Positions 1 through 23,877 of a stretch of DNA of 64,000 nt are shown piece by piece (position 1 is the first letter of the stretch; every line of letters begins with the position of its first letter). The stretch is from Antedon mediterranea. Taxonomy: Eukaryota; Echinodermata; Crinoidea; Comatulida; Antedonidae. The DNA is taken from NCBI RefSeq assembly GCF_964355755.1, contig NC_092670.1:15623201-15687200 (forward strand), written 5' to 3'. The position numbers and the translations under genes are program-made. The notes under the pieces are model-generated. The model did not search any database and had not been told where the DNA came from. It was given only the letters and a program-made list of their open reading frames with translations.

Positions 1-3000
1 ACATGTCTTTCCTGCCGGAGAACGTGAATATTCCAGAGATTTGTTTGTTTTCCTTTGTTTCATCTTGTTTGGTGTTGGATGCTATTTTACAGTTCAAGTG
101 AACGAGGATAAGATTCTAAACAGGTAGGTATAATTCATTACTTACAAGCAAAGCAATGGATTTATGTGTTTAGCTTTTTTAATGTTCAATGTTCAACTAC
201 TCTACTACTATACTATCATACAGTATCCCTATCTTGGCTAATTTCTGATTTACTGAGTACTAACAGTAATTTACAGTTAACCCCTTTTCACACTGCATAA
301 AAATTGTAACAATAACATTATTATTTTGATCTTGATTTATTAAACATTTTCATACACGCACATTCTCAAAGTATAGCTGGGCGCTATTTTATAATTATTC
401 ACAGGTTCACTGGTTCACTCGGAACAGAAATTGGCCTCTCCCGAAATATCATAGGCCCCCTTTTCCGAAAAATTGCCTTCACACTATGAGAACTTTTTAT
501 CAAACAGATTAAAAGGGTACAGTATACAAATCATTATTCTCTGATAACAATAAATCATGGAGCTATAATATAGCTCCATGAATAAATCGATAGAAAAGTC
601 TAATACCCATTCATGCATGTTGTTGTCTTTAGAATCTGTGAGGTGTGTACAGTGTCTTTTGTATTGTAGTACAGATTCTATTGTATAGTACTGTACCATG
701 ACTGTACTACATCACTACACATCAAGTATTTTAACGCCCAATTGTCAAGGTTATTGCTGTTAATTATGTGGACTTATTATATAAATAATTTAAATAAGTT
801 TCGCAAACTCACTTTTACCAGCAAAATAATACATAAAAAGAACCTGTACAATTATACACAAAAAAATGATCTACAGTGGGACACCCCTATTAACTCACTC
901 ACTTCTCCCTTGCCATCTAAACGACCTTTTCGCTCCTAATAATACCGTTCATAAATATTATACTAGAACAAGAAATAACATATATATCCCTAACCATAAC
1001 ACCAATTATTTTCAACATAGCATTAGATATTCTGGACCTCTATTGTTTAACAATTTACCCCCCTCAATTTCCTGTGCTGCCAACCGCTATTCATTTAATA
1101 ATAACATAAAAAATTACCTTTTGTCTCATTACTGATCGATCTGTTTGATATGGTCGTTTTTTCCATGTTCCGTGACTTGCTATCTTTATTATTCAATTGT
1201 CATCATATTCGCTATATGCCATGCAGCTGTACTTTTTTCTGTTCTTTTTTTATTTTTTATTCCAACTTTTATCTACTGGTTTTATATATATTTTGTATTT
1301 CTTTATTGTTTAATTAATTTATTTTCTTTATTTATATATTTTTTTTTTTTTTTCTTCTCTTATTTAAATATTTTGTAAAGGCAATCCCGTCACAAGATTG
1401 TAATCTTTTTGGGATTTGCCTTCGTCCATTTTCTTGTTTTATCACTTGCCATTTTGTTTTTGTTACTTTTGTCTTTTGGACGTGAATAAATGTTCCTTGA
1501 ATTGAATTGAATTGAAATTAAGGGGACACTTTTTTTGTGAAATGAATTAGAAGTTTAGTAAAACATTAAGACTATTTAGGGAACTAGTCTGTGTTCTCGA
1601 CATGATAATCTTTTAATCTTTAGATTTATGGATGTATAGTATAAAGTATTATTTGTATTATTTGTTATAATATGGCGTGAGTGCAGACTACATTACTGTA
1701 TGTTATTAGTAGTTTAGTGCAATCTGTTGTCTTTAAAAAAAAAAGATTAGAGTTCTTCCTAAATACCAAAGCCCTCAGTAACCAAGTCCTACGAGCCTTT
1801 CCATAACCAGGCCCTCCATCACCACGCCCTACGAGCCCTTCCACCACTAGACCCTACAAGCCTGTCCATAACCAGACCCTTCCATAACCAGGAGGCCCTC
1901 CATCACCACGCCCTACGAGCCCTTCCACCACTAGGCCCTACAAGCCTGTCCATAACCAGGCCCTTCCATAACCAAGCCCTACGAGCCATTCGATAATCAG
2001 GCCCTGCCATAATCAAGCCCTTCCATAATCAAGCCCTACTGTACGAGCCATTCCATAACCAGGCCCTCCATAACCAAGCCCTACGAGCCTTTCCAAAAGC
2101 AGGTCCTTCTATAACCAAGCCCTACGTGCCCTTCCATAACTAGGCCCTTCCATAACCAAGCCCTACGAGCCCCTCCATAACCAGGCTCTTCCATAACCAA
2201 GCCCTACGAGCCCTTCCATAATCAGGCCCTTTCATAATTAGGCCCTTCCATAAGCAAGCCTTATCAATCATAACCAACCCCTACCAGTATAAAGTGTAAA
2301 TTATACCAAATAGAAGTTATTTAAGAGTTTTTTTTTTACGACAAAATCACTCCTAAAGTTTGATTTTAATGATGAAAATGCAATTAGCTATCTAAATATC
2401 ATATTATATACAATTTCCACTTTATACCAGTGGTAGGGCTTGGTTACAGTATGATTGATGGCTTGGTATTAAATGATTCATTGATAGGGCTTGGTTATAG
2501 ATGGCTTGGTGTTTAGGAGGACCAAACAGATTGACTCAATGATGACAATCTTTAAATCTTTTGATAATCATGAGATTTGTTACGTTTGTTGAGCCTGCTA
2601 GATTCTAATCATCATCTGTTGAAAACAACATGTACAGTAAATAGACATTATTAATATTGATTAATTCTGATATTGTATCATCTGTGCAATGCTTTTGTTT
2701 GTCAAGTCTCCTGAGGTTAATGTGTACTATCATACCTACTGTACATCAATAATAATGTACTTAATAGCCTGGTAGCTACCAGCTGTTGGATGTAGTCTTG
2801 TGTACACGTCCACAGGTAGCTTTCGGATGGTAAAAGAAATGGAGGTACTGTAATTAACAGAGTGACATTTTTTTGGAGACACAAGCGATGACGGTCAGCC
2901 CCCTCCTCCTGAAAGACCCTGTACACATGGGTTTGGTAGGCGTGTTTGAAAAGTTTATCTTTACCCAGGCTACAGTACTGTAGTTCTACAGTAGGTTAGC

Positions 3001-6000
3001 AAAATTCAAAAGTAAAACTAAAAACAAAACCTCAAATTTAAAATGTATTTACGAGAGTGTGCGTTTTTTTTAATGAATAAAGAATCAAAGTAAATTCACA
3101 ACCAATAAATACTATATAATGTACATACTGTAAAATGATGTTTTAATTAAGTATTCAATTATCTTAAAAATGAAAAACTTCGGCCTATTATATGCATTCG
3201 TTTTGTACTGATCGGATATTGTGATGATTAGGATTTGGGGTAGCACTAACATTTCATTTTGTTTAGCCATTTGGCGAAAGTCAAAATATTTTTTTTAGTC
3301 AAATCAGTTTATCTATAGCCAAAATGGCTAAAGTCAAATTTTTTTATTTAGCCAAATGAATCGGTTTATAGCCAAAATTTAAAATTTTTGAAATATAGTG
3401 GTAAAAATATTTTAGTCAATTTATCTATGTCAACAGGTCTATACACTGTTCCCTGAACATTTTTGTAAGGCATTGAGATAAAGAACCATGCCTAAATCAC
3501 TGTATGATTAAAAAAAATATTTTTTTTTGTATTTTTTTTACATGATCAAAACAATTCTTCAAATTGTTTTTAATCATACAGCATTTATACAGTTATCAAT
3601 TTAATAAGAAACATTTAACAGTTTTCTGAAATCCCCTGAACGCTATGTTACTTTTGTTTTTACGCTTGGCTGGTCATGGCGTACCAGGCGAAAATCGTGT
3701 CCTAGAATCACCGCCGCGCAGCGGGTTAATGTTTTTAAATTGGGTATGCTCAAGAGGTGCGAAAGTGCAGAACCGCCGGCCTAGGCCTACAAAATTATGT
3801 ACAACAACGCAACGGTATATCGTATGCTAAAAATATTGAGGAAAATTCCTAGCAAACGAACACTCGTATCGTTCTTAAAAGTAAGATAATATAGGCCAAA
3901 GCACAGAGTACACGTCTTTCCATCCCTCAAGACTGCGCCGAAGCGTTTCTGTCAGGGCGAGAAATTTCCGATTATTATTTATTTACACAAAACAACACAG
4001 AATTAAGCCGGCGACCGGCCCCGCTCAGATGCACGTGTGTGTTTAGCTAAATCCCCGTTAGACTCTACCATTTCCCGCATGTTGTTTTGTTTACACTACT
4101 GACGCACGAGGGAAGTTTATTAAGGCTAAAATATGAAACTACATTAAATTGGAAGACTCTAAAATGCATAACGCATACATTTTTGATTTCGATAAGATTA
4201 AGACGTCATTCATCGAAGATACTATAATGTTTCTTTTTAATCTGAAAAGTACACCCCTATCGAAAAAATAGACAATCCCGGTAATTAGCCGACCGTCGGC
4301 TACGTAGTCGATCGTTTGTGCAGCGCACAACACGTGATAGTTTGGGTAGACTTCATCATCCATGTGTCGTGTAACGTCTTTCTCTCTGTGCAGTCTACCT
4401 CTGCTATCCATCTTTTTGAAATAACAAAGAGACGCCTGGTACAACGAAACAAGTTTACGAAAAATCGAGCTTGAAGTAAACAACGTGATAACGAACAAAA
4501 TAAATGCTTGGAGATCGACAAATGGACGTTTTAGTTGGACTTTATGCTTTCGCCAAAATGATTATTTAATTATCTATTTTATCATATGTCATCGCCAAAA
4601 TGGCTAAAGTAGCCGTTTTATTTTTCGCCAATCTAGAAACGTTTTCGCCCATGGCGACTTGGCGATCGGCCAGTGCGAGCCTAGGATTTATTTTTGAAAA
4701 AATAAATGTTGTTCTATGGGACTGATTATATCAACCAAATACTATAACGAATGGAAACCGAGTATATTGGGCTTATGCGCAGATAAATATTTTTGTACAA
4801 TGTTTCTTCATCTACCATCCCAAAACTAGTGTTTTACATTACATTACACTCCCCACCTTGTGTCAAGATTGCATAAAATATGTTGACAATGTTTATTATT
4901 AGCAGAACCCCCTCTTAGGGATACAGTACAATACACCCCTAAAAAGGGGACACTCCCATGAAACAATATTGCATTGTTTTAACATTAACAGCCAACCCGT
5001 TTTTGCAGATTCCTTAATAGTTATCAATTATCCCTTTTTGTTATTATTTTATAGTACTTAGTTTTTTACCTCTTTCCCTTTTTTTTAAATGATTTAATAA
5101 TGTACAGTGTATCTTTAATGTTTTCACTAGAGATCAAACTGAAGAATGGAAGGGTTGGATGCAGGTGATGTTTGTGTGGTATCATTACTATCATGCGCTG
5201 GAGACGTACAATATGATCAGAATATTTATTGCTTGCTATGTTTGGATGACAGGATTTGGTAAATATGAAAATCTTTTTAACAAACATTAACTTTATTCCC
5301 CAACACGCATTGTGTGAGTTCTACTCCTTTTGTAAATTAAAATTTAATCACTAATTTGAGGAACATTGTTTGTGATTAGAAAATTGAATATTGAGAGCTA
5401 CCCACCATATAATAAAATACCATGTTATGCCTTGGTGTATAAACTCTGGAGTTTTGCTAGGTATGAAGGGGGGTTACACACACAGTGGCACATAACATTC
5501 AAAACACTGGTGTTAGTATCTAGACTACAGTAGTGTGAAAGGGATTTTTTTGTCTAGAAGCACTTGAAATTGAATACATAAGTGAGATTTTTTTGAGCAA
5601 GTAGTGTCCTGTACAGTAAGTAAGCCAGCTTTTTATTCACATGCTAAATCAATGACTTTGCCATAAGCTATGTTAAAGTTTGACGCCCTTCTCATTTAAT
5701 TGTAAAATAGCCAACCAATCTTTAAAGAAGTATTTACCTTAAATTAATACAGCTTGATATTTTTCTCAATAGGTAACTTTTCTTTCTTCTGGATTCGTCA
5801 AGACTTTTCAATATGGCGCATCTGTAAAATGATGTTTCGTTTAAACTTCCTCGTTGTTTTTGTTGCCATGGTTACCAATAACCAATACGTGCTATACTAC
5901 ATATGTGCAATGCACACGTACTGGTTCATCACCGTTTACGTGTTCATGCGTGTATTATCATCATGGAACACGCAACCGAACCTGATGGCTATTAAGTTTG

Positions 6001-6728
6001 CCGCGTATTTCATTTGTAATACAATTATTTTTGATTTGCCATACGTTGCTGATGTCGTGTTTACGCCGTTTTGGCCTATTCTATCGTTTAACAATAGTCT
6101 ACATGAGTGGAAGTTTCGTGCGAAGCTAGACCATTACGCCACATTAATTGGGATGATATCTGCTTACAATTACCCTCATTATGAACGGCTTATGAAATAT
6201 CTGGACCAGAAACATATTGACAGACGAGATCGGATAATAACGATCGGTATAAAGATCATGTCATTGGGTATTTTAGGCATTTTTTTCATGACATGGTGTT
6301 ACCATTTTATGTTTATGGAACGCCACATGTATAATCACTACCACCCATACATATCATGGTTTCCAATCCTATCATTTATTTTTGTGCGTAATTTGTTTCC
6401 CGTTTTGCGAACGCATCACATCGGCTTATTCGCATGGCTCGGAAAAATCACACTGGAAACATACATAACCCAGTTTCATATATACATGCAGTACAACGCA
6501 AAACAACTTATTGTTTTCATTGATGGATATCCGTTGATGAATTTTGTCGTTTTAAGCGCGGTGTACCTCTTCGTCTCGTTCTATTTGTTCCGATTGACAA
6601 CTGAATTTAGTGCTTTTCTTTTTCCAAAAGATATGAAAAGAGTTTTATATCATTTTATTGGTATTGTTCTAATTTTTGGCATCTATTTTTGTATCGCTTT
6701 TCTGCTTCGTGACACAGGAATATTATAA
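1..6728 (+). CDS. CASD1: CASD1-like membrane acetyltransferase, copy A (5' end outside window)
   Basis: Exons seen: 2-123 (frame starts at base 2; base 1 belongs to the preceding codon), 5131-5258 and 5773-6728, with phases that join exactly (AG|A, then G|GT). The protein matches the C-terminal multi-pass membrane domain (Cas1p/CASD1 acyltransferase family): [11 protein letters not shown] in exon 2 corresponds to the conserved EQTDEWKGWMQ of CASD1, then TGFG|NFSFFW and [13 protein letters not shown]1 is the Golgi enzyme that moves acetyl groups from acetyl-CoA to CMP-sialic acid; the membrane part is thought to handle acetyl-CoA. The last exon is one uninterrupted 318-codon exon ending LLRDTGIL. 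The 5-kb intron carries a LINE tail and a minisatellite. Whether this copy has an SGNH domain upstream of the window cannot be seen. Confidence 0.88.
866..1516 (+). mobile_element. Non-LTR retrotransposon (LINE) 3' fragment
   Basis: Bases 866-1135 encode a peptide with the pattern of a LINE reverse-transcriptase C-terminus: [18 protein letters not shown], then [17 protein letters not shown], ending in a stop. A 3' UTR follows with a stem-loop (AGGCAATCCC / GGGATTTGCCT, about 1378-1423), an AATAAA near 1486 and a terminal TTGAATTGAATTGAA tract, the usual short-repeat tail of CR1/L2-type elements. The 5' part is missing and it lies in the first visible intron of copy A. Clade is inferred. Confidence 0.75.
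1765..2290. repeat. Degenerate minisatellite (CCATAACCAAGCCCTACGAG-type unit)
   Basis: A phrase close to CCATAACCAAGCCCTACGAG recurs about a dozen times with variable spacing (roughly 30-60 bp units). Inverted pieces of the same phrase (TAGGGCTTGGTTA) occur at 2430-2505. It lies in the large intron of copy A; no coding content is seen. Confidence 0.75.
3255..4680. other. Unexplained CpG-richer island flanked by related AT-rich phrases
   Basis: Inside the AT-rich intron, 3620-4500 is visibly richer in CG dinucleotides. Both edges carry the phrase GCCAAAATGGCTAAAGT (about 3318 and 4592) plus variants such as TTTAGCCA and TTTCGCCAA. A 119-codon minus-strand open frame (4139-4498) lies inside and I do not recognise it. 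It may be an inserted element or a decayed gene fragment; no transposase, terminal repeat or target duplication was identified. Confidence 0.35.
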
Positions 6729-7325: not shown

Positions 7326-8785
7326 TTAATTCTCTTGGCTATGGGACTTTTGTTTTAATAAAACAAAACAAAAAAGGAGAAACAAAATGAGAATATACAT
7401 TTCACTAATAAAACAGGTTGAAATGTGGCACTGATAAAAATAAAAGTGCAGTGCCAATAACATTATTATTATCAGTTAATATTAATATTTCAATGATGAT
7501 GTGATTTATTAATTATTTTAGCTAACTAGTGATGGTGAAGGAGGTGGTTTTTCTTTTGGTGTTTGTCTACTAATCTCAGGTACTGGGTCAAATTCTTTAT
7601 TTCACATTCAAGTAGAATAAGAGCTGAACTACTGTAAATAAAGAAAACGTATTTATATATAAATTGTTGCTTTGTTGATATATAGAGTAAACAAAATGCA
7701 ATTACTGCAGTAACTGCAGTAGATTGAATTTTGACATGATCCCTTATACTGTTATTTAACTTTAAATTTCTTTATATAAAACAATTATCATTATTGATTA
7801 TTGTATAATTTATAGTGAACATATGATTATAAATATTCATATATTTATTTCAATAAAAAGAGATTTATAAAATATTATAAATGTTAATTATTAATTAAAT
7901 CCTTTTATATGCACAAGCAATAATTGTTGAAAATAATTGCAATAAAATTGAAATTCATATTTGGCCTAGATTTAAATGTCATCCTCATCTCATTCATAAT
8001 TAAGACTAGATAGCAGATACTGCACAATTTCTAATATCATTTTTAAATAATATCATTCAGTAATATTTACTGATTTTTGCAGTCAGGCCAGTTTAATCAT
8101 CATGAAGAGGGAAAATAATAAACTGTATGAACTTATTATTCTAGGTATAAAAAATATGTTGAATTGCATGTTATGAAGCTTTTTATTATTATATTTATAT
8201 TTTGTTTTTTAACTAAATTTTCGTTTGTTTCGTTTCTGTATGAACAAATGTAGGACTTTTGAAAAAGAATGAGGCAATATACTGTATCTTATTATTTACA
8301 TTAACCTGAAGTCTTTCAAAATATTTGATTAAAATAGTAATTGAACATGATATCATTTTAGTTTCATTTTTCACAATAAAATTATCAATAACATTAGTAT
8401 CATTTTGGAAAATTAATAATATATAAAATTAACCTTTGATTGGTATGTTTTCTACACTGTATGTCGGATATCCATGTTTGTATGGCATCAGGTGCGAATA
8501 AAAGGTGGTTTTTATTACATATGAATAATGTATTATTATACGTAAATATACAAATATTAATTATTTAATTATAATTAATTTACATACAACCTGCTAAAGT
8601 TCAGCACGCTCCCAAAGACTGGTAGATATTTGCCTGAAAATAAATATATACAGTAGGTTTGGATGGAGTAACTACTTACTGTATGCCTACATCAGTTTGT
8701 CTGCACTGCGCCCTTTTTAAACTTACTGTAATTGATTCCTTTTGAAAAGTTTGGACATTTTTACAACGAGTTGGCAGAGCATAAA

Positions 8786-11700
8786 ATGGAAGCACATTAC
8801 CATTGGATTCAGCAATTATCTTCCACTGGAAAGCGCGATGTCCCTGTCAATTACACCAGTGTTTTTTCTACAAACAACGGACAACAAGCGAATATTTGCC
8901 AATTGGCGCTTTTTCTTATATGGGTTACCATTATTTGTTTTTGGACCTTCAGACGTTTTTTTAATTGTAAACCTTTACCAGAAATTTCTTCTTGCGACAA
9001 TAAAACTATTGAAGATGGCGCTCGGAAAACAAAAGATGATATACCTCATGGACAGTTTGAATCAAATGAAGAAATCTCCAATATAAAAGAATCCACAGAA
9101 GTAATTGAGGATAAACCAACAACACAACAAGAAGAAAGTACTAATACCGAAACAAAAAGTCCATTTTCAAAAATTAAACCACCCCCTACGTTTGATAAAT
9201 TTCTGTTTTATTGCATTGTTTTCGGTGCGTTTATGGTGTTCTTCTATCTTTGCGATTCTAAACATGTCTTTCCTGCCGGAGAACGTGAATATTCCAGAGA
9301 TTTGTTTGTTTTTCTTTGTTTCATCTTATTTGGTGTTGGATGCTATTTTACAGTTCAAGTGAACGAGGATAAGCTTCTTAACAGGTAGGTATCTTAAACA
9401 ATTGTTTACATTAGAGCAAAGCTTCTGAATCAAATGAACGTATTATATTAGTGTAGAGAGCTGCAGCCTCAATTCCCATCTGACTTATCTGCAAAGGAAG
9501 ATGAGGATGTTGAACATGTTTATTATTGTTCAATGTACGGTAATTGCTGGTTTTTATTTATAGATAAATAGAAGCATCTGAATAATTTGTAACTACTAAT
9601 CCCATCTAATGTACCGTACTGTTTACAGCAGTAAGCTAACAGAAGACTTCGTTATTTGTTCTAGACCTCCCCCGAGACCTCCCAACTCCCGATATTTGGA
9701 GTCATCTCTTTAAAAAAATGTCCTCCCGATATTCTGTGTAAACAAAAAAATATCTATTACTCTAGATAAAGAAATAAAAAGAAAATGTGTTAAACATCAA
9801 TCAAGATAAATTCATGTAGGCCTATTTTGACCTATAAATAACCTTTTAAATTTATATATTTTTAAATTTATGTAAATTTAGATATTTTTAAATTTATGTA
9901 AATTTAGATATTTTTATACTAGACCTACTGTTCAAATTATATTATAATACGGTATAATACCTGAATACTAAAAACTACATTGTTTAGGAGCAATATTTAT
10001 TGCAATTGTTTCAAATATTTTTTGAATGCCAGATTTTAATATTCAGAGAGTTAATAGTTTTTATTTCATTGACTATTTGTTGCAATCTATTATTTTGTAA
10101 TACATTAATACTTTTGGATTAAACAATATGTGAGGCTCTTGATATCGTTTGAAAATTGTCTGGTATATCATAATCCCGAGATTATTACTATTGTTTGCTT
10201 CCTGATTGCAACATCTGCATTATTTAACAATAGGCGTACAGTATAATTATTGTAAAAATTGTATTTATTGCAATCTGTTAATAATTTTAATACAGTAATC
10301 TTTTTGATTAAACAAATAATAATTACAGTAATCCTTTTCGATTGAACCATATGTCGCTTGAAAAATTGTCTGATATATAATAATCCCGAAATTTGCTAAA
10401 GTATCGTATTGTGTGTTTACTGATTACAGAATCTCTATTTTATTAGACAATACAGTTATATAATTTAAGTTATTTGTACTTCTGTTAATATTTTTAATAC
10501 AGTAATCTTTTTGGATTAAACAAATAATATTTTTCTCTTGATAATATTTGAATCTCCGATAAATATCCTGAGATTTGTTAAAGTACGTTATTTTGTATTT
10601 TGTCGTCAACTGTTTAAATTTAGTAACATTAGGCCCTACATGAACATGCGTAACAATTCAAACAACTAGAATGTCAAATTTGTTGGATAGTAGGCAGCAA
10701 AACATATATATTGATCAAACCATGGGTACACTTGAGATCAATGATATGCATAGGCCCATGTAAGCCTAATCTGATTATCGATCTAATTAATCTGTAATAG
10801 AGTTGAATAATCAGTTGACTTGAATTTTCAAACTTTTTTGTAGACTTCTACAAATTTGTAGTTTGTCGAAGTTTACACTAACAAACATTGGACAACCTTT
10901 CTTTCCAAATTCAGCGTTTTTTTCTAGTTTTTTAACTAATGTTTACTAGTGTAGACTTCTGCAATTTGCCGAAGTTTGTCAACTGGTTTATACACTATCA
11001 AACTTATTGCTATTGATCAATTGTTTTTCGAACTAATATTTGCTAGTGCTAGCAAACTTGTTTTCTGCAGTTTTTCAACTGGTTTACACTAACAAACTTT
11101 GGACAATTTTTCTTGCCAAACTAGCTAAGGGTTGCTAGTGTAAACTTGTTTGCTGATATTTGTCAACTAGTTTACACTGACAGCCTTTGGAAAACTTTTC
11201 TTGCCAAACTAAAAGTTTGCCCAAGTTTTTAAACTAAGATTTACTCCTGAGACATTTGCAAATTTACAGTATACATCTGTTTCCTTTCAACTTTCCAAAT
11301 TCAGAGTAAATTATACAATTTTGAAAATTTTGATTATTAAATTCTTCACAGTTTATATTTGATTTATCATTTTGCTATCAATTATTGAATAAGAAACATT
11401 GAATATTATAATTACACATAGTACCTATGTCCCTCTTGCATATCTATTATTGTCTCCTCAGGGATCAAACTGAAGAATGGAAAGGTTGGATGCAAGTGAT
11501 GTTTGTGTGGTATCATTACTATAATGCAAGAGAGACGTACAATATGATCAGAATTTTTGTTGCTTGCTACGTTTGGATGACAGGATTTGGTAAATATGAA
11601 GTTATTAATTTTATTACCCAACACGCATTGTGAAGTTCTACGTATATCAATATAATTTTGTGATTTGTTTTCGATTGCGAGGTTGAAGTGGAATGTTAAT

Positions 11701-13092
11701 CAAAATATTTTTGTAGTTTTAATATTACAATGTTAATCTAGATGTAGGCCTACTTACTTTATTCCGAAAAAAATGTTCAGTTTTGGGCAGTAATGGAAGT
11801 CTCATAATTAGTTACATTTGCATAAGCTATTTATTTTTATTTTTTTTATTATTAGGCAGGATAACATAATTCAGAAAAGAAAAGATCACAACATTTCTTT
11901 TTTTTCAATATGGTCCTGCAATGAAACAACTATAAAAACTAAATAGAAAAATATAACAATTAGTAAATATAGAACGTTAATAATAATACGTGGGAAATAC
12001 AATGATTGTTCAAGGGAGAAAATGGGCCCGCAAATTATTTCTAGAGGAAAAATATGTATTATTAATAACTGAACCCTACACTCTTTCACCTCCACACACT
12101 TTAAGGAGTGCTTTAATACAATATTGTTTTCCATAGGTAACTTTTCTTTCTTCTGGATTCGTCAAGACTTTTCAATATGGCGAATATGCAAAATGATGTT
12201 TCGTTTAAACTTCCTCGTCTTTTTTGTTGCCATGGTCACCAATAACCAATACGTGCTCTACTACATATGTGCAATGCACACGTACTGGTTCATAACCGTT
12301 TACGTGTTCATGCGTGTATTATCGTCATGGAACACGCAACCAAAACTTATGGCTGTTAAGTTTGCCGCGTATTTAATTTGTAATACAATTATTTTTGATT
12401 TGCCATATGTAGCTGATATCGTGTTCACGCCGTTTTGGCCTATTTTCTCGGTAGACAACAGCCTTTTCGAGTGGAAGTATCGTGCTAAGCTAGACTATTA
12501 TGCCACATTTGTGGGAATGATATATGCTTATAACTACCCTAATCACGAACGACTTATGAAATATCTTGATCAGAAGCATATTGACAGACGAGATCGGATA
12601 ATAAGGATCGGTATAAAGGTCATGTCATTGGGTATTTTAGGTATCCTTTTCGGGACATGGTACTACTATTTTATGTTTATGGATCGTAAAATATACATTT
12701 ACTATCAGCCGTACATATCATGGTTACCTATCCTATCATTTATTTTCGTGCGTAATTTGTTTCCCGTCTTTCGCACTCATCACATCGGGTTATTTACTTG
12801 GCTTGGAAAAATCACATTGGAAACATACATAACCCAGTTTCATATATACATGCAGTACAACGCAAAACAACTTATTGTTTTCATTGATGGATATCCGCTT
12901 ATGAATTTCTTTGTTTTAAGCGCGGTGTACCTCTTCGTCTCGTTCTATTTGTTCAGATTAACGACAGAATTCAGTGCTTTTCTTTTACCAAAAGATATGA
13001 AAAGAGTTTTATATCATTTTACTGGTATTTCTCTAATTTTTGGCATCTATTTTTGTATCGCTTTTCTGCTTCGTGATACAGGAATATTATAA
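8786..13092 (+). CDS. CASD1: CASD1-like membrane protein without SGNH domain, copy B
   Basis: Exons 8786-9384, 11462-11589 and 12137-13092; 1,683 coding bases, 560 residues, phases consistent. Begins MEAHYHW; a predicted lumenal stretch of about 40 residues leads to membrane segment [14 protein letters not shown], an acidic/Ser-Thr-rich loop (about residues 62-130), then [17 protein letters not shown] and [27 protein letters not shown] in exon 2, and many membrane segments in exon 3. Human CASD1 is about 797 residues; the roughly 290-residue esterase domain is absent here. The start is the ATG shared with copy C. The frame stays open upstream to 8732, so a spliced upstream exon cannot be excluded for this copy. 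The family acetylates sialic acids in the Golgi; for a membrane-only copy the activity is uncertain. Confidence 0.85.
10040..10615. repeat. Degenerate tandem repeat in intron 1 of copy B
   Basis: Three diverged units of roughly 200 bp, each with ACAGTAATCTTTTTG.ATTAAACAA followed by TTGAAAATTGTCTG.TATAT.ATAATCCCGA. The two small minus-strand open frames inside are by-products of the repeat. Confidence 0.65.
10825..11240. repeat. Degenerate ~100-bp tandem repeat, about four units
   Basis: Repeated phrases GTTTACACTAACAAACTT, TGGACAA.TTTCTTGCCAAA and TGCTAGTGTAAACTTGTTTGC alternate about four times. Units contain short internal inverted repeats (GTTTACACTA / TAGTGTAAAC), like decayed copies of a small TIR element inserted in series. 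Lies in intron 1 of copy B. Confidence 0.55.
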
Positions 13093-15222
13093 TTCTACAA
13101 CATTAAATCATTATCATAAGATATAAACTAGATATGATAATTCGCATACATTCATAAGTACGGACGTATGCGTATATGAGCATATGTTTATTTAGTTTAA
13201 ACAGTTTTTGATAATATCGATGTTTTTGCACATTTCAAAACAAAATATGAAGCTTGCCCAGCCTTTTTGTACAGCAGGGTTTGTAACCAGATGTTGATGA
13301 TTTCTTGTATTCTACTCTGCATTTAAAGCAAGCATTAAAGTATCACTTATGCCAAGCACAATCCATTCATTTCTTTTACTTCGGATAGTACATCCAGCAT
13401 ACAAATCAACATATTCATTTTATTTAATTTCCAGTACTTTACTGGATGGGTTAGAGTTTCTTCATGGCTTTAAATTGATGAAAGTTGGTGTTTTTACTTT
13501 ATTTGTAAAGTCGCATATTATAATATGATGGTACCAGGGAAGAGAATGTCACTATTCCCCGGATGGTACAATGATTATGTTAATTATTAAATTATTTAGT
13601 AACTGGTGAGATGAGAAGACTCTTTACTTTATTATGTAATGTTTTTCGTTTATTATTATCAGGTGTTTGATTACATAATCTCGTGGTAATTGGTTTTAAT
13701 CCTTTCTTGTATCATGTGTTCAATAACATGCTATTAATATGTGCATTATATGTGGAATAATATCTGAACTAAATTAAACGTCATATGTTGTTATAGCTGA
13801 TGTTTATATCATGTTGATGATAAAAAGATGAAATACACAATTAAAACAATAATTTAATATGATACCAATTATATCATTTCAATAAAATACCCCTTTTATC
13901 ATTATGTATTATATTGGAAAATGTTTCCTGTAGCGCCTTCCTTTTGTTTATTCGAGAAAAAAAAAAATGATTATTGATTGATTGAATCACATCTGTTGAT
14001 CTATCTCCAGAGGAGAACACATATGTATTGGTAAGTTATTTTGTGCATTAAGTTTCAATAGACATTTATAATATTAAAATAGTGTTCTTTTTATTCCCTG
14101 ACACTAATACTGAATAACCATTTGTTATTTGATTAGTTTTGGCGGGTCTATTCGGTGTGACATCATCAGCTACATAACAGCTATTGATGAAAACATTTCT
14201 TCTGGTTTCGATTCGTATAATAATATAAGTAGTTCTTTGATAGTAAACCAATAAAACTTACGTTGGCAAGACAGTTTCGTCTAGCTGTCAGCTTGACTTC
14301 TTCAGTTGCTATGATGCGTTATGGCGCCGATTGGTCTCCTTTCCAGCCACTAGATGATTTTGTTGTGTAGCCTACTTATATTACTACATAACAGCTGTTT
14401 TTGTAACCACATGAATAATGTATTACATGTTATACATAACAATTATTAATTATATTATTTATTATATATTTATTTTAATTGACTATAAACAATTTGCATA
14501 AAACCTGCTGAAGTTAGAGGTATTCCCAAAGCGTATTACATATCTACCATTTTAGTCTCGTACTGTAGGTATGGAGATCTGGAACTACGTAAACCTACAC
14601 TGAGCCACACTGTAACTCGTACTGTAGGTATGGAGATCTGGAACTACGTAAACCTACACTGAGCCACACTGTAACTCGTACTGTAGGTATGGAGATCTGG
14701 AACTACGTAAACCTACACTGAGCCACACTGTAACTCGTACTGTAGGTATGGAGATCTGGAACTACGTAAACCTACACTGAGCCACACTGTCTCGTACTGT
14801 AGGTATGGAGATCTGAAACTACGTAAACCTACACTGAGCCACACTGTAACTCGTACTGTAGGTATGGAGATCTGGAACTACGTAAACCTATACTGAGCCA
14901 CACTGTAACTCGTACTGTAGGTATGGAGATCTGGAACTACGTAAACCTACACTGAGCCACACTGTAACTCGTACTGTAGGTATGGATAGATCTGGAACTA
15001 CCTAAACCTACACTGAGCCATACTGTAACTCGTACTACTGTAGGTATGGAGATCTGGAACTACCTAAACCTACACTGAGCCATACTCTAACTCGTACTGT
15101 AGGTATGGAGATCTGGAACTACCTAAACCTACACTGAGCCACACTGTAACTTGTTTTGAATTGGTTCCTCTTTTTTTGTTCTAAGTTTTGAAAATGTTCA
15201 ACCATTGACAGACTAACATAAA
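13093..15222. other. Spacer between CASD1-like copies B and C
   Basis: AT-rich with no convincing coding exon. A possible 20-bp exon, flanked by CTATCTCCAG and GTAAGTTATT, sits at 14011-14030. Block 14408-14550 resembles 8518-8637 upstream of copy B. The 59-bp minisatellite (14557-15150) ends 72 bp before the copy C start codon. Confidence 0.55.
14557..15150. repeat. 59-bp minisatellite, ten units, just upstream of copy C
   Basis: Units begin CTCGTACTGTAGGTATGGAG at 14557, 14616, 14675, 14734, 14791, 14850, 14909, 14968, 15029 and 15091. The first units are almost identical; the last three vary (extra TA, extra CTA, CCTA for CGTA). A related single unit (CAGTAGGTTTGGATGGAGTA, CCTACATCAG) stands at about 8650-8710 upstream of copy B, so the array looks like a local expansion after duplication. 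It is in the promoter, 5' UTR or a 5' intron of copy C. Confidence 0.95.
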
Positions 15223-17587
15223 ATGGAAGCACATTACCATTGGTTTCACCACTCATCTTCCATTGGAAAGCGTGATATTCCAGAATGGACAACAAACGCT
15301 GTAGAAGCACACTTGAGATCAAACGTACAATGTACCAGTGTGTTTTCGATAAACAATGCACAACAAGCGAATATTTGCCAATTGACTCTTTTTCTTATAT
15401 GGGTCACTATTGTTTGTCTCTGGACCTTCAGACGATTTTGTCATCGTAAACCTGTTCCACAAACTTCGTCTTACGACAATAAATGGACAATAATTGAAGA
15501 TGAAATTACACATCAACAAAAACTGCAAACTGGAAATTCGGGAAACCCGCTTTTAAAAGATAAAAACATTTCAATAGAATTGAACGTTGGTGATACATCA
15601 ACAACACCGCCAGAGGAAAACACAGAAACAAAAAGTCCATTTTCAAAAATTAAACCACCCCCGACGTTTGACAAATTTCTGTTTTATTGCATTGTTTTCG
15701 GTGCGTTTATGGTGTTCTTCTATCTTTGCGATTCTAAACATGTCTTTCCTGCCGGAGAACGTGAATATTCCAGAGATTTGTTTGTTTTTCTTTGTCTTAT
15801 TTTGTTTGGTGTTGGATGCTATTTTACAGTTCAAGTGAACGAGGATAAGATTCTAAACAGGTAGGTATAATTCATCATGTTTATCATTTAGAGCATAGCT
15901 AAGGTAAATGGACTTAAGTAGTCCATTACATTTTTCTAGCCTGGCATGGACCAAACTCAATTCGTCTCCTGTAGCATACGAAACAATGTCGTGTACTCGT
16001 GAAGTAAACACGTTTTATTTTTATTTCTGATTATATATATAACATCTAACTATATATTATTTATATATTATTCATCATATTTGTTATGTTTTAGCGGACA
16101 ATAGCCTACATCTTTGAAGTAAATAATTACAATTTAACAATGTATACCTTATAATGTCTTCACCAGAGATCAAACTGAAGAATGGAAGGGTTGGATGCAG
16201 GTGATGTTTGTGTGGTATCATTACTATCATGCGAGCATTGAGATGTACAATATGATCAGAGTATTTGTTGCTTGCTACGTTTGGATGACAGGATTTGGTA
16301 ACTATGAAACGTTTCTAAATGTAAACATTAACATTATTCCCCAACACGCATTGTGTGAGTTCTACTCCTTTTGTAAATAAAATTGAATGACTATATGTTA
16401 TAGTAATGCTTTGTAGCCCTTGATAAATGACTGGTCTGGATCACTGTAGGCCCTAATAGTGGCCGGTGGTAGCTCCATAAGGTAGCCCAATGTCAACTGC
16501 ACATCAATGAAACTTTAAGCTATGTTAAAATCGGTGAATTTGGTTTTCTTGTTGGTGAGCTTTCTTATTAAAAAGAGCCCTTCCTACCAACATGTAACCT
16601 GCGCGCGAAATTAAAAAAGTTCTATTTTTCACAATAGGTAACTTTTCTTTCTTCTGGATTCGTCAAGACTTTTCAATATGGCGCATCTGCAAAATGATGT
16701 TTCGTTTGAATTTCCTCGTCATTTTTGTTTCCATGGTAACCAATAACCAATACGTGCTGTACTACATATGTGCAATGCACACGTACTGGTTCATCACCGT
16801 TTACGTGTTCATGCGTGTATTATCGTCATGGAACACGCAACCAAAACTCATGGCCGTTAAATTTGTCGTGTACTTCATTTGTAATACAATTATTTTTAAT
16901 GTGCCCAACGTTGTTGATGTCGTGTTTACGCCGTTTTGGCCAATTCTCTCGATGAACAACACACTTTGTGAGTGGAAGTATCGTGCCAAGCTAGACCATT
17001 ATGTCACATTAATAGGGATGATATCTGCTTACAATTACCCTAATTACGAACGCCTTATGAAATATCTGGATCAGAAGCAGAAGCATATTGACAGACGAGA
17101 TCGGATAATAACGATCGGTATAAAGATCATGTCACTGGGTATTTTAGGCATCATTTTCGTGACATGGTGTTACCATTTTATGTTTATGGAACGCCACATG
17201 TATAATCACTACCACCCGTACATATCATGGTTTCCTATCCTATCATATATTTTCGTGCGCAATTTGTTTCCCGTCTTTCGCACTCATCACATCGGGTTGT
17301 TTACTTGGCTCGGAAAAATCACTTTGGAAACGTACATAACCCAGTTTCATATATACATGCAGTACAACGCAAAACAACTTATTGTTTTCATCGATGGATA
17401 TCCGCTGATGAATTTCTTTGTTTTAAGCGTCTTGTACCTGTTTGTCTCATACCATTTATTCAAATTAACAACCGAATTTAGCACTTTTCTTCTCCCAAAA
17501 AACAACAAAAGAGTTTTATATAATTTTGTTGGTATTATTCTAATGTTTGGCACCTATTTTTGTATCGATCGCTTTTCTGCTTCGTGA
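15223..17587 (+). CDS. CASD1: CASD1-like membrane protein without SGNH domain, copy C
   Basis: Exons 15223-15860, 16167-16297 and 16638-17587; 1,719 bases, 572 residues. Begins MEAHYHW like copy B; an in-frame TAA lies 9 bases before the ATG, so this start is well supported. Residues [10 protein letters not shown] sit where human CASD1 (from memory) has its DGLHLPESS, so the protein begins next to the catalytic DxxH and lacks it. Exon 1 has about 15 residues missing from copy B, exon 2 one extra codon, exon 3 two extra codons (QKQKHIDRR). Near the end ATCG is duplicated (17564-17571), shifting the frame so that the family tail IAFLLR... is replaced by IDRFSAS. Probably a functional or recently altered paralog. 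Confidence 0.85.
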
Positions 17588-19113: not shown

Positions 19114-22100
19114 ATGGCAGCCTCCATAACAGAGGATTACGATGTTTGTTTAGATGACTACAAATACATTTTTAATCCTAGTTTATTGAAGTAGGATGGA
19201 AATTAATAATTATATTTTTTAGATATTTATACCTAGCTAGCCTCTCTATTCTAGCTATACTACTAGTTGGGTAGCCCAATGGAGGTATCCATCATGGGTA
19301 GCCAGGGCGTCCGATCTAGAATTTAGGCGCAGCCAGTTTGAGTTTGTCAATTGTCCATGCATGGTGCGCCACCAAGGAAAAATGTTTTTGTCATGTTCAT
19401 GTATGAAACGCTAACATCCATTGGCGCAAAAAAAAATGTTTGTTGTTAAATATTTATTAAGATTTTGTTGTCTCCACAATCCATAAAATAAACAAGAAAT
19501 ATTTCTTACAAACAAAAATACTTAAATTGTCAGACAATGGTTTTTGGGTTATAATAAGACGTTTCTTTTCTCATTTTAAACATGAATAAATATTTTTTTG
19601 TTACAGAAGTGAATAACTTTTGTCTTTGAAGTAAAATACAACAAGAATTCATACTTTGATATATCATAATTGTACAACATCTGCCTCAACTATAATTACT
19701 GCTTAATATAGCTTCTGAATGAGTAGCCCTCATGTATGTAGCTGGCTAAAGCAGAAGCGTGATAAAAATTTGCAATGATGCCTTTGTCTGGTAATCTGTG
19801 CAAATGCGGTCAATAATTGTTATCCAACATATATGTATGTCTTTTTCAAAATATTAATAAATAATTTTTTTTTCCAAGAGGAAAAGTTGCATTTATAACT
19901 GGTGGTGGATCTGGTATATGTTTCACAATTGCTGAAATTTTAATGAGGTAAGACTAGATAAGGTTGATTTAACAGGGTAGCAACAACTGTACTGCTGACT
20001 TCCTCTTAAATTAAAAACAATACAAAATTCTACAAAAAAAAGACATTAAACATCAAACTACAAGTAGGTTCAAAAAGTTAAAATTCACATTCAGATTCAA
20101 AAAAATTAAATTTATACAATGAACAATTTAGAAATGTTAAAATTCTCATTAAAAAATATAAAACTTAATAAAAAGTCTAAAAATATATATTAAATCATTC
20201 TTAATTAGCACATACACGCACAACGATCAAACTGTAAAGCTCTGTCTACACTATCAAACTTTATGTGACAAAAAATGTGATGTGCCCATATATTGACATT
20301 ATGATGTTATATCACTACCATATTTGGACACATCACTCTTTGTCAAACTAGTTTGATAGTGTAGGCAAAGCTTTTATTTTAACATGATATCCCTGGGTGC
20401 TCATTTTTATAAAAAGTGTACTGTTATAAATTCTCTTCTTTTTTATAGACACAAATGTGACACTATTATATTAAGCAGAAAATTAGAGAGAGTCAATAAG
20501 GTATAAGGTATTCATAGGATTGATACAGTAGTTAATATATATTAATTATAAAAATATCAAGTACTACATTGGTTATTATTATGACTAATATGATTGATTG
20601 AATACAAGTTCCGAAGAATTTCAAAGTTTAAGTGTGCCTCTCATTGTTAGAGTAAAACGTGTTTGCTTGCTGAATCCAAATATCAGATTTTTTAATAGGT
20701 CATAATCAATTTCATTTTTACAATTATTGTAGTCATCTCGGAGGCTTGAAGAAGCCACTGGACAGAGATGTCTTCCACTTCAATTGGATGTCAGAAAGGT
20801 AACTAAGCTCTATTTAAGGTTTCCAAATTCATTCAATAAGATTTTTTTTCCAAAAATATACATCGCCGTTTTATTCCTTTCAGCCACAAGATGTACTGAC
20901 TGCTGTAGACAAGGCTCTTTCTCATTTTGGTAGAATAGACATTGTAGTCAATGGTAAGCAGAGGATTTTTTGTAAGAAATTTTTACTGAAAACTGAGCAA
21001 ATAAATGACTATGAGCATCTATCAGTGTCAATACAACTTTTAAGTCTCTCTAGCCTACTGTTCAATTGACCAGTACCATCCAGCATTATAGGTCAGGGGG
21101 AGGGAGGGCTAAATATTTCATAAGTGATAAAAAAAAACGATCCATCGGGTTGCAGAACAACCAAAATTATTATTATTTTATTTTTAAAAGACATGGCAGT
21201 TTTGGGGGCTAAAGCCTGTTTATCCCCCACCAAAATTCTATTGCAATTTTTTTTTTTCAGGGGCTGCTGGCAATTTTCTATGCCCTGCTGAGAGTATGTC
21301 ATTCAACGCCTTCAAAACTGTCATAGAGATTGATACAATTGGAACCTTTAATATCTCAAAAGCAGTTTATGACAAATATATGAAGGTACGCATCCTTAGA
21401 ATTTAAATTTATAGAATGTATGCATAGATAGCACACCAGTTTTTATTTGTGATGTCAAAAATAGCCTCCATCCAAACCTCATAACCATCTGATTGGATTC
21501 ATTTGACTAGATATACAATATATGTATATAAATCTTCTCTCTCCCCCCCCCCCTTCCCCTTTTAACTAAAAATGTCAAACTCACCACCAGTAAATGGTTG
21601 GTAAGGTTTACTTTCAACCTGAATACTTTTTGACAGAGGCCTTTGACAACCCAGTGACTTGAACAGAGGTTGTTCCCTTTGACAACCCAGTGGCTTGAAC
21701 AGAGGTTGTTCCCTTTGACAACCCAGTGGCTTGAACAGAGGTTGTTCCCTTTGACAACCCAGTGGCTTGAACAGAGGTTGTTCCCTTTGACAACCCAGTG
21801 GCTTGAACAGAGGTTGTTCCCTTTGACAACCTAGTGGCTTGAACAGAGGTTGTTCCCTTTGACAACCCAGTGGCTTGAACAGAGGTTGTTTCCTTTGACA
21901 ACCCAGTGGCTTGAACAGAGGTTGTTTCCTTTGACAACCCAGTGGCTTGAACAGAGGTTGTTCCCTTTGACAACCCAGTGGCTTTAACAGAGGTTGTTCC
22001 CTTTGACAACCCAGTGGCTTGGACAGAGGTTGTTCCCTTTGACAACCCAGTGGCTTTAACAGAGGTTGTTCCCTTTGACAACCCAGTGGCTTGGACAGAG

Positions 22101-23877
22101 GTTGTTCCCTTTGACAACCCAGTGGCTTGAACAGAGGTTGTTCCCTTTGACAACCCAGTGGCTTGAACAGAGGTTGTTCCCTTTGACTACCCAGTGGCTT
22201 GAACAGAGGTTGTTCCCTTTGACAACCCAGTGGCTTGAACAGAGGTTGTTCCCTTTGACAACCCAGTGGCTTGAAAAGAGGTTGTTCCCTTTGACTACCC
22301 AGTGGCTTGAACAGAGGTTGTTCCCTTTGACAACCCAGTGGCTTGAACAGAGGTTGTTCCCTTTGACAACCCAGTGGCTTGAACAGAGGTTGTTCCCTTT
22401 GACAACCCAGTGGCTTGAACAGAGGTTGTTCCCTTTTCTTGTGAAAACCGTACCACTTTATTTCTTGATGCTACATCACTGTAACTAGAATAATCTGTTT
22501 ACAACTACAGTTGCACTAATTTTATACAATGTATTTTTATGTCACATTATGTTTTAATAAACATGACAGTAAAGTATGTTATCTTATTGATTTGAATTTA
22601 GAACTATAACAGTTGTACTACTTTTTCTTATGTCTTCAGATTTTATTGTAACAACTCAAATGATTTGTACAATACAGGGTATATCCAGTTATAATAAACC
22701 TGAACGTTATCTTATCTTATTGACCTCATATATTAAATTTTATCATGCAGCATCATGGTGGTGTGATTATTAACATATCAGCAACATTGGCATACAGAGG
22801 TCAAATGTTACAAGCACATGCTGGACCAGCCAAGGCAGCAATTGGTAATATTTAATTGTCATTTGCATTCTACTTAAAGATCCATTCCCTACAATTGTTG
22901 ACGTTTTGTAAAAATAATGTATATATTACATTATTACATTAAACCAGGTCATTCCTTGTCTTAAATGTATGTTTTATGGTAAATTATGATAAAAAGAGAG
23001 AAACAATGCACTACCTAGTAGTAAGTAGCTCACAGTGAAAAAAATATCAATCTTCGCACAATGCATGCTGGGATTTATAGCAGGCCACTTAAGTTATTAG
23101 AATCAACTTATTTTTTACATTTTTAACCTTTTAAAGAAAAAAAAGTTATTAAAATTGGACCATATAGTATTTATTTAAAAAATTAAAGGTAGATTGTGAC
23201 CTTAAATTAGATCTAAAAAACTTATTAGGGAATACAGTTTTCCTGTAAAGTGTATGTGAAAAGTAGAGCAACCAACCCGATAATATTCTTTGACAAAGGA
23301 ATTAGTGTGTTGTTTTTATTTTGTGAAAATTTACAGATGCATTGACCAAACATTTGGCTGTTGAGTGGGGACATCAGGGCATCCGTGTAGTCTCCCTTTC
23401 ACCTGGTCCAATAGAAAAAACAGAGGGCATAAGAAGACTTGGTAAATTTTGATTCTTTATAATAATTTTCTTTTGATACGATGTATAAAAACATAGACAC
23501 TCGTTCCTCAATAAAAAATGTATTTATTATACACCCTACTATATACATAGTATAAAACTAACACCAAAAAAGGACAGGAAGGTCATGATTCAACTTTTCG
23601 ATCTATTTAAACATAATCAGTTTATTGTATTTTCTAATACAGTATTTATTTGCTATTTCCTTTAGGTGGAAAACTCAAAGATGCAAGGGTAACGTCAATC
23701 CCTTTACAGCGATTTGGTACCAAAAAAGAAATTGCTGAGGGAGTGGTCTACCTAGCTAGCCCGGCAGCAGACTTTGTAACAGGTACCGTGTTGGTTATCG
23801 ACGGTGGGTCGTGGCTTACAGCAACTAATGACTTCAGTTTGGCCAAACCTTTGCTAGAGCTGATGTCAAAGATGTAA
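19114..23877 (+). CDS. DECR2: Peroxisomal 2,4-dienoyl-CoA reductase
   Basis: Nine exons: 19114-19190, 19879-19947, 20449-20500, 20733-20798, 20884-20953, 21261-21385, 22751-22844, 23337-23441, 23666-23877; 870 bases, 289 residues (human DECR2 292). It is an NADPH-dependent short-chain dehydrogenase needed to degrade fatty acids with even-numbered double bonds in peroxisomes. Visible landmarks: [11 protein letters not shown] (residues about 27-37), the DV pair, [37 protein letters not shown] and a C-terminal SKM that fits a PTS1 peroxisome signal. The start ATG (AAGATGG) begins [10 protein letters not shown], aligning with the human N-terminus. Odd: the last glycine of the nucleotide motif is Cys (GSGIC, human GSGIG), and the active-site segment has AGPAK where human has AGSAK. 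Convergent with INTS15. Confidence 0.95.
20235..20375. mobile_element. TIR element, family 1 copy 1 (MITE)
   Basis: Starts TAAAGCTCTGTCTACACTAT and ends GTTTGATAGTGTAGGCAAAG followed by CTTTTA: near-perfect terminal inverted repeats of about 25 bp around an AT-rich core with GTGATGTGCCCATAT and CATATTTGG. No coding sequence. Lies in DECR2 intron 2. TA at both ends would fit a TA target duplication. Confidence 0.85.
21583..22470. repeat. 36-bp minisatellite (~22 units) grown inside a dispersed element
   Basis: From 21637 to 22436 a 36-bp unit (TTGTTCCCTTTGACAACCCA, then GTGGCTTGAACAGAGG) repeats about 22 times with very few substitutions. Because 36 is divisible by three, long open frames appear on both strands but are not genes: the array is in DECR2 intron 6. 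The left flank (CCACCAGTAAATGGTTGGTA .. TTTCAACCTG) and right flank (TTTTCTTGTGAAAACCG) match the single-unit element at 55806-55930, showing the array is an expansion of that element's middle. Confidence 0.95.

Follow-up and report, generated by a model that had tools for sequence, protein, structure and literature searches.

Four CASD1-like genes stand head-to-tail on one chromosome of Antedon mediterranea and encode the membrane half of CASD1 without its SGNH half. On the balance of the sequence evidence we favour reading them as membrane-only relatives of CASD1 that act as stand-alone transmembrane O-acetyltransferases, natural counterparts of SGNH-deleted CASD1. In human CASD1, the membrane region at the C-terminus forms a second active site and is an O-acetyltransferase itself (PMC13043746, Nat Commun, April 2026). 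Both CASD1-S94A and CASD1 in which a tag replaces the SGNH domain gave >60% complementation in cells, H446A abolished it, and residues R428, K435, R489, R496 and Q714 were found to matter once the SGNH site was dead (PMC13043746).

Gene models and the transmembrane active site

A profile search of the genome (354 Mb, 18 contigs) placed matches to PF07779 (Cas1_AcylT) at two places, the array at C1:15618076-15640787 and one gene on contig C2. The stretch of 64,000 nucleotides that was analysed, hereafter the window, is C1:15623201-15687200, and coordinates without a contig name are window positions. The four genes, named 0, A, B and C, have three exons apiece and intact open reading frames, every internal junction follows GT-AG and is in phase, and the proteins are 530, 568, 560 and 572 amino acids long, respectively. 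Only copies B (8786-13092) and C (15223-17587) are complete within the window, and the exon coordinates originally predicted for these two were correct; copy 0 (C1:15618076-15621303) lies entirely to the left. The exons in the window are as follows:

1-123, forward strand: end of copy A exon 1, which starts at C1:15622701, 499 bases left of the window
5131-5258, forward strand: copy A exon 2, TMH5-6 with YH...TGFG and the H446 equivalent
5773-6728, forward strand: copy A exon 3, remaining membrane core and stop codon
8786-9384, forward strand: copy B exon 1, ATG, short N-terminal tail and hydrophobic segments 1-3
11462-11589, forward strand: copy B exon 2, with K207 and H218 corresponding to CASD1 K435 and H446
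12137-13092, forward strand: copy B exon 3, with R258, R265 and Q476 corresponding to CASD1 R489, R496 and Q714
15223-15860, forward strand: copy C exon 1
16167-16297, forward strand: copy C exon 2
16638-17587, forward strand: copy C exon 3, with a 4-base insertion near its end

Judged by eye, the neighbours of the array are a lipin-like gene on the left (C1:15605001-15613187) and a gene resembling peroxisomal DECR2-type reductases on the right (20733-21406). Minisatellites occur in intron 1 of copy A (1763-2280, unit of about 41 bases) and at 21496-22587 (unit of 36 bases). In the latter both strands have long open frames, and one of these encodes 302 residues of a 12-residue repeat.

Copy B matched positions 46-480 of the 482 in PF07779 (E 6e-86, 289.6 bits against a cut-off of 27.3), and no other Pfam domain was matched by this copy. 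The original prediction that copies B and C encode the whole multi-pass membrane domain is right, with a match that, in copy B, spans nearly the full profile; the exons of all four copies exceed the cut-off. Hydropathy profiles show several strong hydrophobic segments along each protein and do not fix the number of helices. AlphaFold2 applied to exon 3 of a copy alone gave an unusable prediction (mean pLDDT 37), and for this reason the fold was taken from the family; exon 3, the only query used against solved structures, found no sequence match there.

Equivalents of R428, K435, H446, R489, R496 and Q714 are all present in each of the four array proteins. In the full-length CASD1 on C2 the putative counterparts of the first five residues are spaced exactly as published (7, 11, 43, 7), and that of Q714 is at most three residues off the published spacing. 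The array proteins also keep the [ST]G-aromatic signature (as TGF/Y) and the histidine of a late helix (QxH), features noted in PMC2824669. The TmAT/AT3 motif is a conserved basic residue and a histidine on the first core helix with an arginine on the third (PMC12423673, PMC2824669); the array proteins have the lysine and the histidine on the first core helix and keep two arginines, including the arginine of the third core helix. The transmembrane active site, consisting of the TMH5 histidine, the CoA-binding basic quartet and the late-helix glutamine, is conserved in the array. These proteins resemble CASD1 in the complete PF07779 domain, the six active-site and CoA residues and both additional motifs, whereas they differ from it in lacking the N-terminal transmembrane segment and the SGNH domain (GDS, DxxH), and identity to the CASD1 of the same genome is only about 34% over the core.

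Origin of the array and selection on its genes

The canonical full-length CASD1 lies on a contig other than that of the array, on the minus strand of C2:16510127-16528821, and its exons encode GDSR, GAATW and DGLH, followed by the membrane region. The model of this gene was assembled by eye on the basis of its open frames and splice sites, which leaves some uncertainty over a few junction residues. As modelled, its membrane region contains ten introns against two in the tandemly arranged three-exon genes, and not a single intron position is common to both. From the differing intron positions, which are the sole basis of the proposal, we infer that the array may have originated as a 5'-truncated, intron-free retroposed copy of CASD1. 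Truncation of this kind would have removed the N-terminal half, including the SGNH domain, and all introns in one step; two introns would have been gained later, before divergence and tandem duplication. Alternatively, the array may be an older separate lineage. The deviating introns appear to fit a 5'-truncated CASD1 retrocopy at least as well as orthology to the plant RWA proteins. No relatives of the array that could serve as an outgroup for a tree were found in the viral and prokaryote collections.

The coding DNA of the copies is 80-89% identical, and their introns can barely be aligned, if at all. Across the complete coding sequence of the four copies, pairwise dN/dS is 0.17-0.27 at dS of 0.35-0.75, which shows that the array genes are under purifying selection; on the same ratio, pseudogene status was rejected. 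Indels among the copies keep the frame, except for the 4-base insertion at the end of copy C, which shifts the frame (17550-17587) and turns the final residues into CIDRFSAS. This altered C-terminus, together with intron positions compatible with a retroposed origin, could be taken to mean that the copies are decaying retrocopies without function; four intact reading frames, the low dN/dS at dS reaching 0.75 and the otherwise frame-keeping indels make such an explanation hardly credible. Copies B (9143-9392) and C (15619-15868) are about 96% identical over the 3' part of exon 1 but only 73-80% alike in the cytosolic loop that precedes it. A recent gene conversion or a strong constraint on the helices may account for this stretch.

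The missing SGNH half and the upstream regions

The array genes start about 17-50 residues ahead of the helix that, in CASD1, is the first to cross the membrane after the SGNH domain. The original prediction had placed the start next to the catalytic DxxH; this holds by position, but the short stretch before the first helix has no similarity to CASD1. The luminal SGNH domain that CASD1 carries at its N-terminus, with its GDS and DxxH motifs, is absent from the open reading frames of the array, from the spacers and from the blocks that the spacers have in common. When the seven SGNH exons of the C2 CASD1 were used as tblastn queries, no credible SGNH exon was detected in 82 kb around the array. 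Since the sensitivity of tblastn is limited at about 34% identity, a spacer-to-spacer tblastx comparison of the four copies was added, and it revealed no coding exon common to the spacers. The power of this comparison was checked on known exons: the 43-residue exon 2 was recovered with E of ~1e-30 or lower, and the N-terminal stretch, although short and poorly conserved, with E from 4e-4 to 2e-17. With copies as similar as these in coding DNA and at such dS, any upstream exon under selection would be expected to be visible between the spacers. The earlier statement that the spacers carry no SGNH exon is thus borne out by both searches. Two tblastx matches between the spacers of copies B and C (E 0.002) were rejected as exons, being 17-20 residues long, on the strand opposite to the genes and missing from the other copies.

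The following features lie directly upstream of copies B and C:

8516-8601, forward strand: noncoding, AT-rich block ahead of copy B, whose counterpart ahead of copy C (about 14433-14515) is 72% identical
8778-8785, forward strand: copy B leader between a putative 3' splice site (ggcag/agcataaa) and the ATG, a layout common to the four copies, with splicing inferred
15214-15216, forward strand: in-frame TAA of copy C, nine bases before the ATG and after the putative 3' splice site

The 72% identity of the noncoding blocks indicates that the spacers of B and C are homologous, and even so they have no coding exon in common. A minisatellite with a unit of about 59 bases occupies 14541-15150 and stops about 70 bases before the copy C ATG, in the presumed promoter or leader. 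In every copy an AG stands 8-12 bases ahead of the start codon; this putative 3' splice site is probably the acceptor of a noncoding leader. The in-frame stop noted earlier in front of the copy C ATG is real, and copy A has a TAG at the equivalent place; in these two copies an upstream exon cannot be joined in frame at that site, as the stop lies between the AG and the ATG. Copies 0 and B contain no stop in this interval.

The AG found in front of all four ATGs makes an upstream exon, coding or 5' untranslated, likely, and two copies are open from there to the ATG. Combined with the limited power of tblastn alone at this identity, these observations leave room for the idea that the array consists of ordinary CASD1 paralogues and that their SGNH exons, lying far upstream or having diverged strongly, were overlooked. 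We consider this very improbable, given the stops in copies A and C and the lack of a common coding block in a comparison that detects weaker and shorter exons. In addition, a genome-wide search with the SGNH part of CASD1 returned just the exons of CASD1 itself and weak NXPE-type matches elsewhere.

Proposed catalysis, probable acceptor and possible partners

If the array proteins are stand-alone acetyltransferases, a mechanism may be outlined: the protein would reside in the Golgi membrane, its short N-terminal tail facing the lumen, cytosolic acetyl-CoA would bind within the helix bundle, and the TMH5 histidine would transfer the acetyl group straight onto a sugar in the lumen, likeliest CMP-sialic acid or a related glycan. 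Such a protein would depend neither on an SGNH domain of its own nor on SLC33A1. A close parallel is the CASD1-deltaLCD construct (PMC13043746), which consists of the membrane region minus the luminal SGNH domain and is active in cells; it is, however, a laboratory construct in which FLAG replaces the luminal domain, whereas the array proteins also lack the first transmembrane segment and carry a short N-terminal tail instead. Bacterial AT3 proteins without SGNH and HGSNAT, of the same TmAT superfamily (PMC12423673, PMC13043746), likewise transfer acetyl directly across the membrane to sugar, but they belong to different families, and HGSNAT carries its catalytic histidine in a loop.

A sialic acid is the probable acceptor, as suggested by the presence in this genome of CMAS, SLC33A1, full-length CASD1 and many GT29 sialyltransferases; with identity to CASD1 of only about a third, the acceptor could also be another glycan. 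GT29 sialyltransferase-like sequences gave at least 150 exon matches in the genome profile search, in which 142 of the 221 candidates were scored, and they form a very large clustered expansion, for example at C9:6932631-7213914, C7:20766351-20892042 and C1:25415842-25535686. The CMP-sialate synthetase profile (PF02348) has two matches within about 1 kb (C1:16262133-16263225), on opposite strands and pointing apart. SASA/SIAE had no match in the genome, in a search that is weak for a gene split into exons.

The original prediction compared the array to plants, in which membrane and esterase-like halves are separate proteins. With the SGNH half missing and the membrane half complete, the architecture does equal that of plant RWA proteins, which are called CTMR-only in PMC13043746, form a small gene family and keep the H446 equivalent (PMC13043746). 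The likeness is one of architecture, and the genome of this animal, unlike the plant system, also has a full CASD1. The split role proposed along with the comparison fared less well: because the membrane region of CASD1 acetylates sialic acid by itself (PMC13043746) and its catalytic and CoA-binding residues are kept here, a separate SGNH partner is not required.

Candidate partners do exist. The NXPE4_C SGNH domain gave 25 matches in the genome profile search, equivalent to about 23 loci, most of which encode the SGNH domain almost in full within a single open frame. GDS was found in all seven that were read, and one of these, at C2:25068139-25068819, also has DxxH at the expected place. Several of the NXPE-type domains form a tandem cluster of nearly identical copies at C3:8975969-9012752, where at least two matches are incomplete, and the others occur at about 16 further places. 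PF13839 (PC-esterase, TBL/AXY9-type) had no match in the genome, but this search was uninformative, being blank also in control genomes and on true CASD1. Human NXPE1 is a sialate O-acetyltransferase of the SGNH type that lacks a multi-transmembrane half (PMC12216134); it shares the sialic acid chemistry proposed for the array and belongs to the family expanded here, yet it has the SGNH half only, the reverse of the array proteins. It is therefore conceivable that the array proteins serve one of the NXPE-type proteins, one locus of which lies about 200 kb from the array on the same chromosome, and RWA/TBL provides a precedent (PMC6110886). We nevertheless regard this as unlikely: in vitro, the luminal part of NXPE1 in recombinant form works with free acetyl-CoA (PMC12216134), which SLC33A1 is present to supply, the CASD1 membrane half works without SGNH, no physical or expression link between the array and NXPE proteins is known, and a strict DxxH is missing at the expected place in most NXPE copies examined. 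Slightly less probable again is a full plant-like division into two families, in which membrane-only proteins would feed or complement the expanded NXPE family beside the fused CASD1 and so diversify sialic acid acetylation.

The genome also encodes a full-length CASD1 that has the GDS and DxxH exons, and the array copies might regulate or partner it through mixed oligomers or competition for acetyl-CoA, thereby tuning 7/9-O-acetylation. Inactive decoys would not be expected to keep every active-site residue in four copies under purifying selection, and we find such a role improbable. The stand-alone acetyltransferase thus remains our preferred reading.

Domain, enzyme class and membrane-only architecture are already familiar from CASD1, Cas1p and RWA. 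The N-terminal domain is conserved in the animal homologues of Cas1p (PMC2824669), and the literature searched, a part of the whole with invertebrate protein databases outside its scope, makes no mention of a membrane-only CASD1 in animals. Relative to that literature, what is new is an animal in which a membrane-only form has been multiplied in tandem and kept under selection alongside an intact CASD1. Until recently, the membrane half of the enzyme was largely regarded as accessory to the SGNH domain. Four selected membrane-only genes with all catalytic and CoA residues provide evolutionary support for the membrane half as an enzyme itself, and the array offers a natural system for finding out where on sialic acid, or on what other sugar, it places acetyl groups without interference from SGNH. 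If the array proteins are paired with NXPE proteins, they would represent an animal parallel to plant RWA/TBL.
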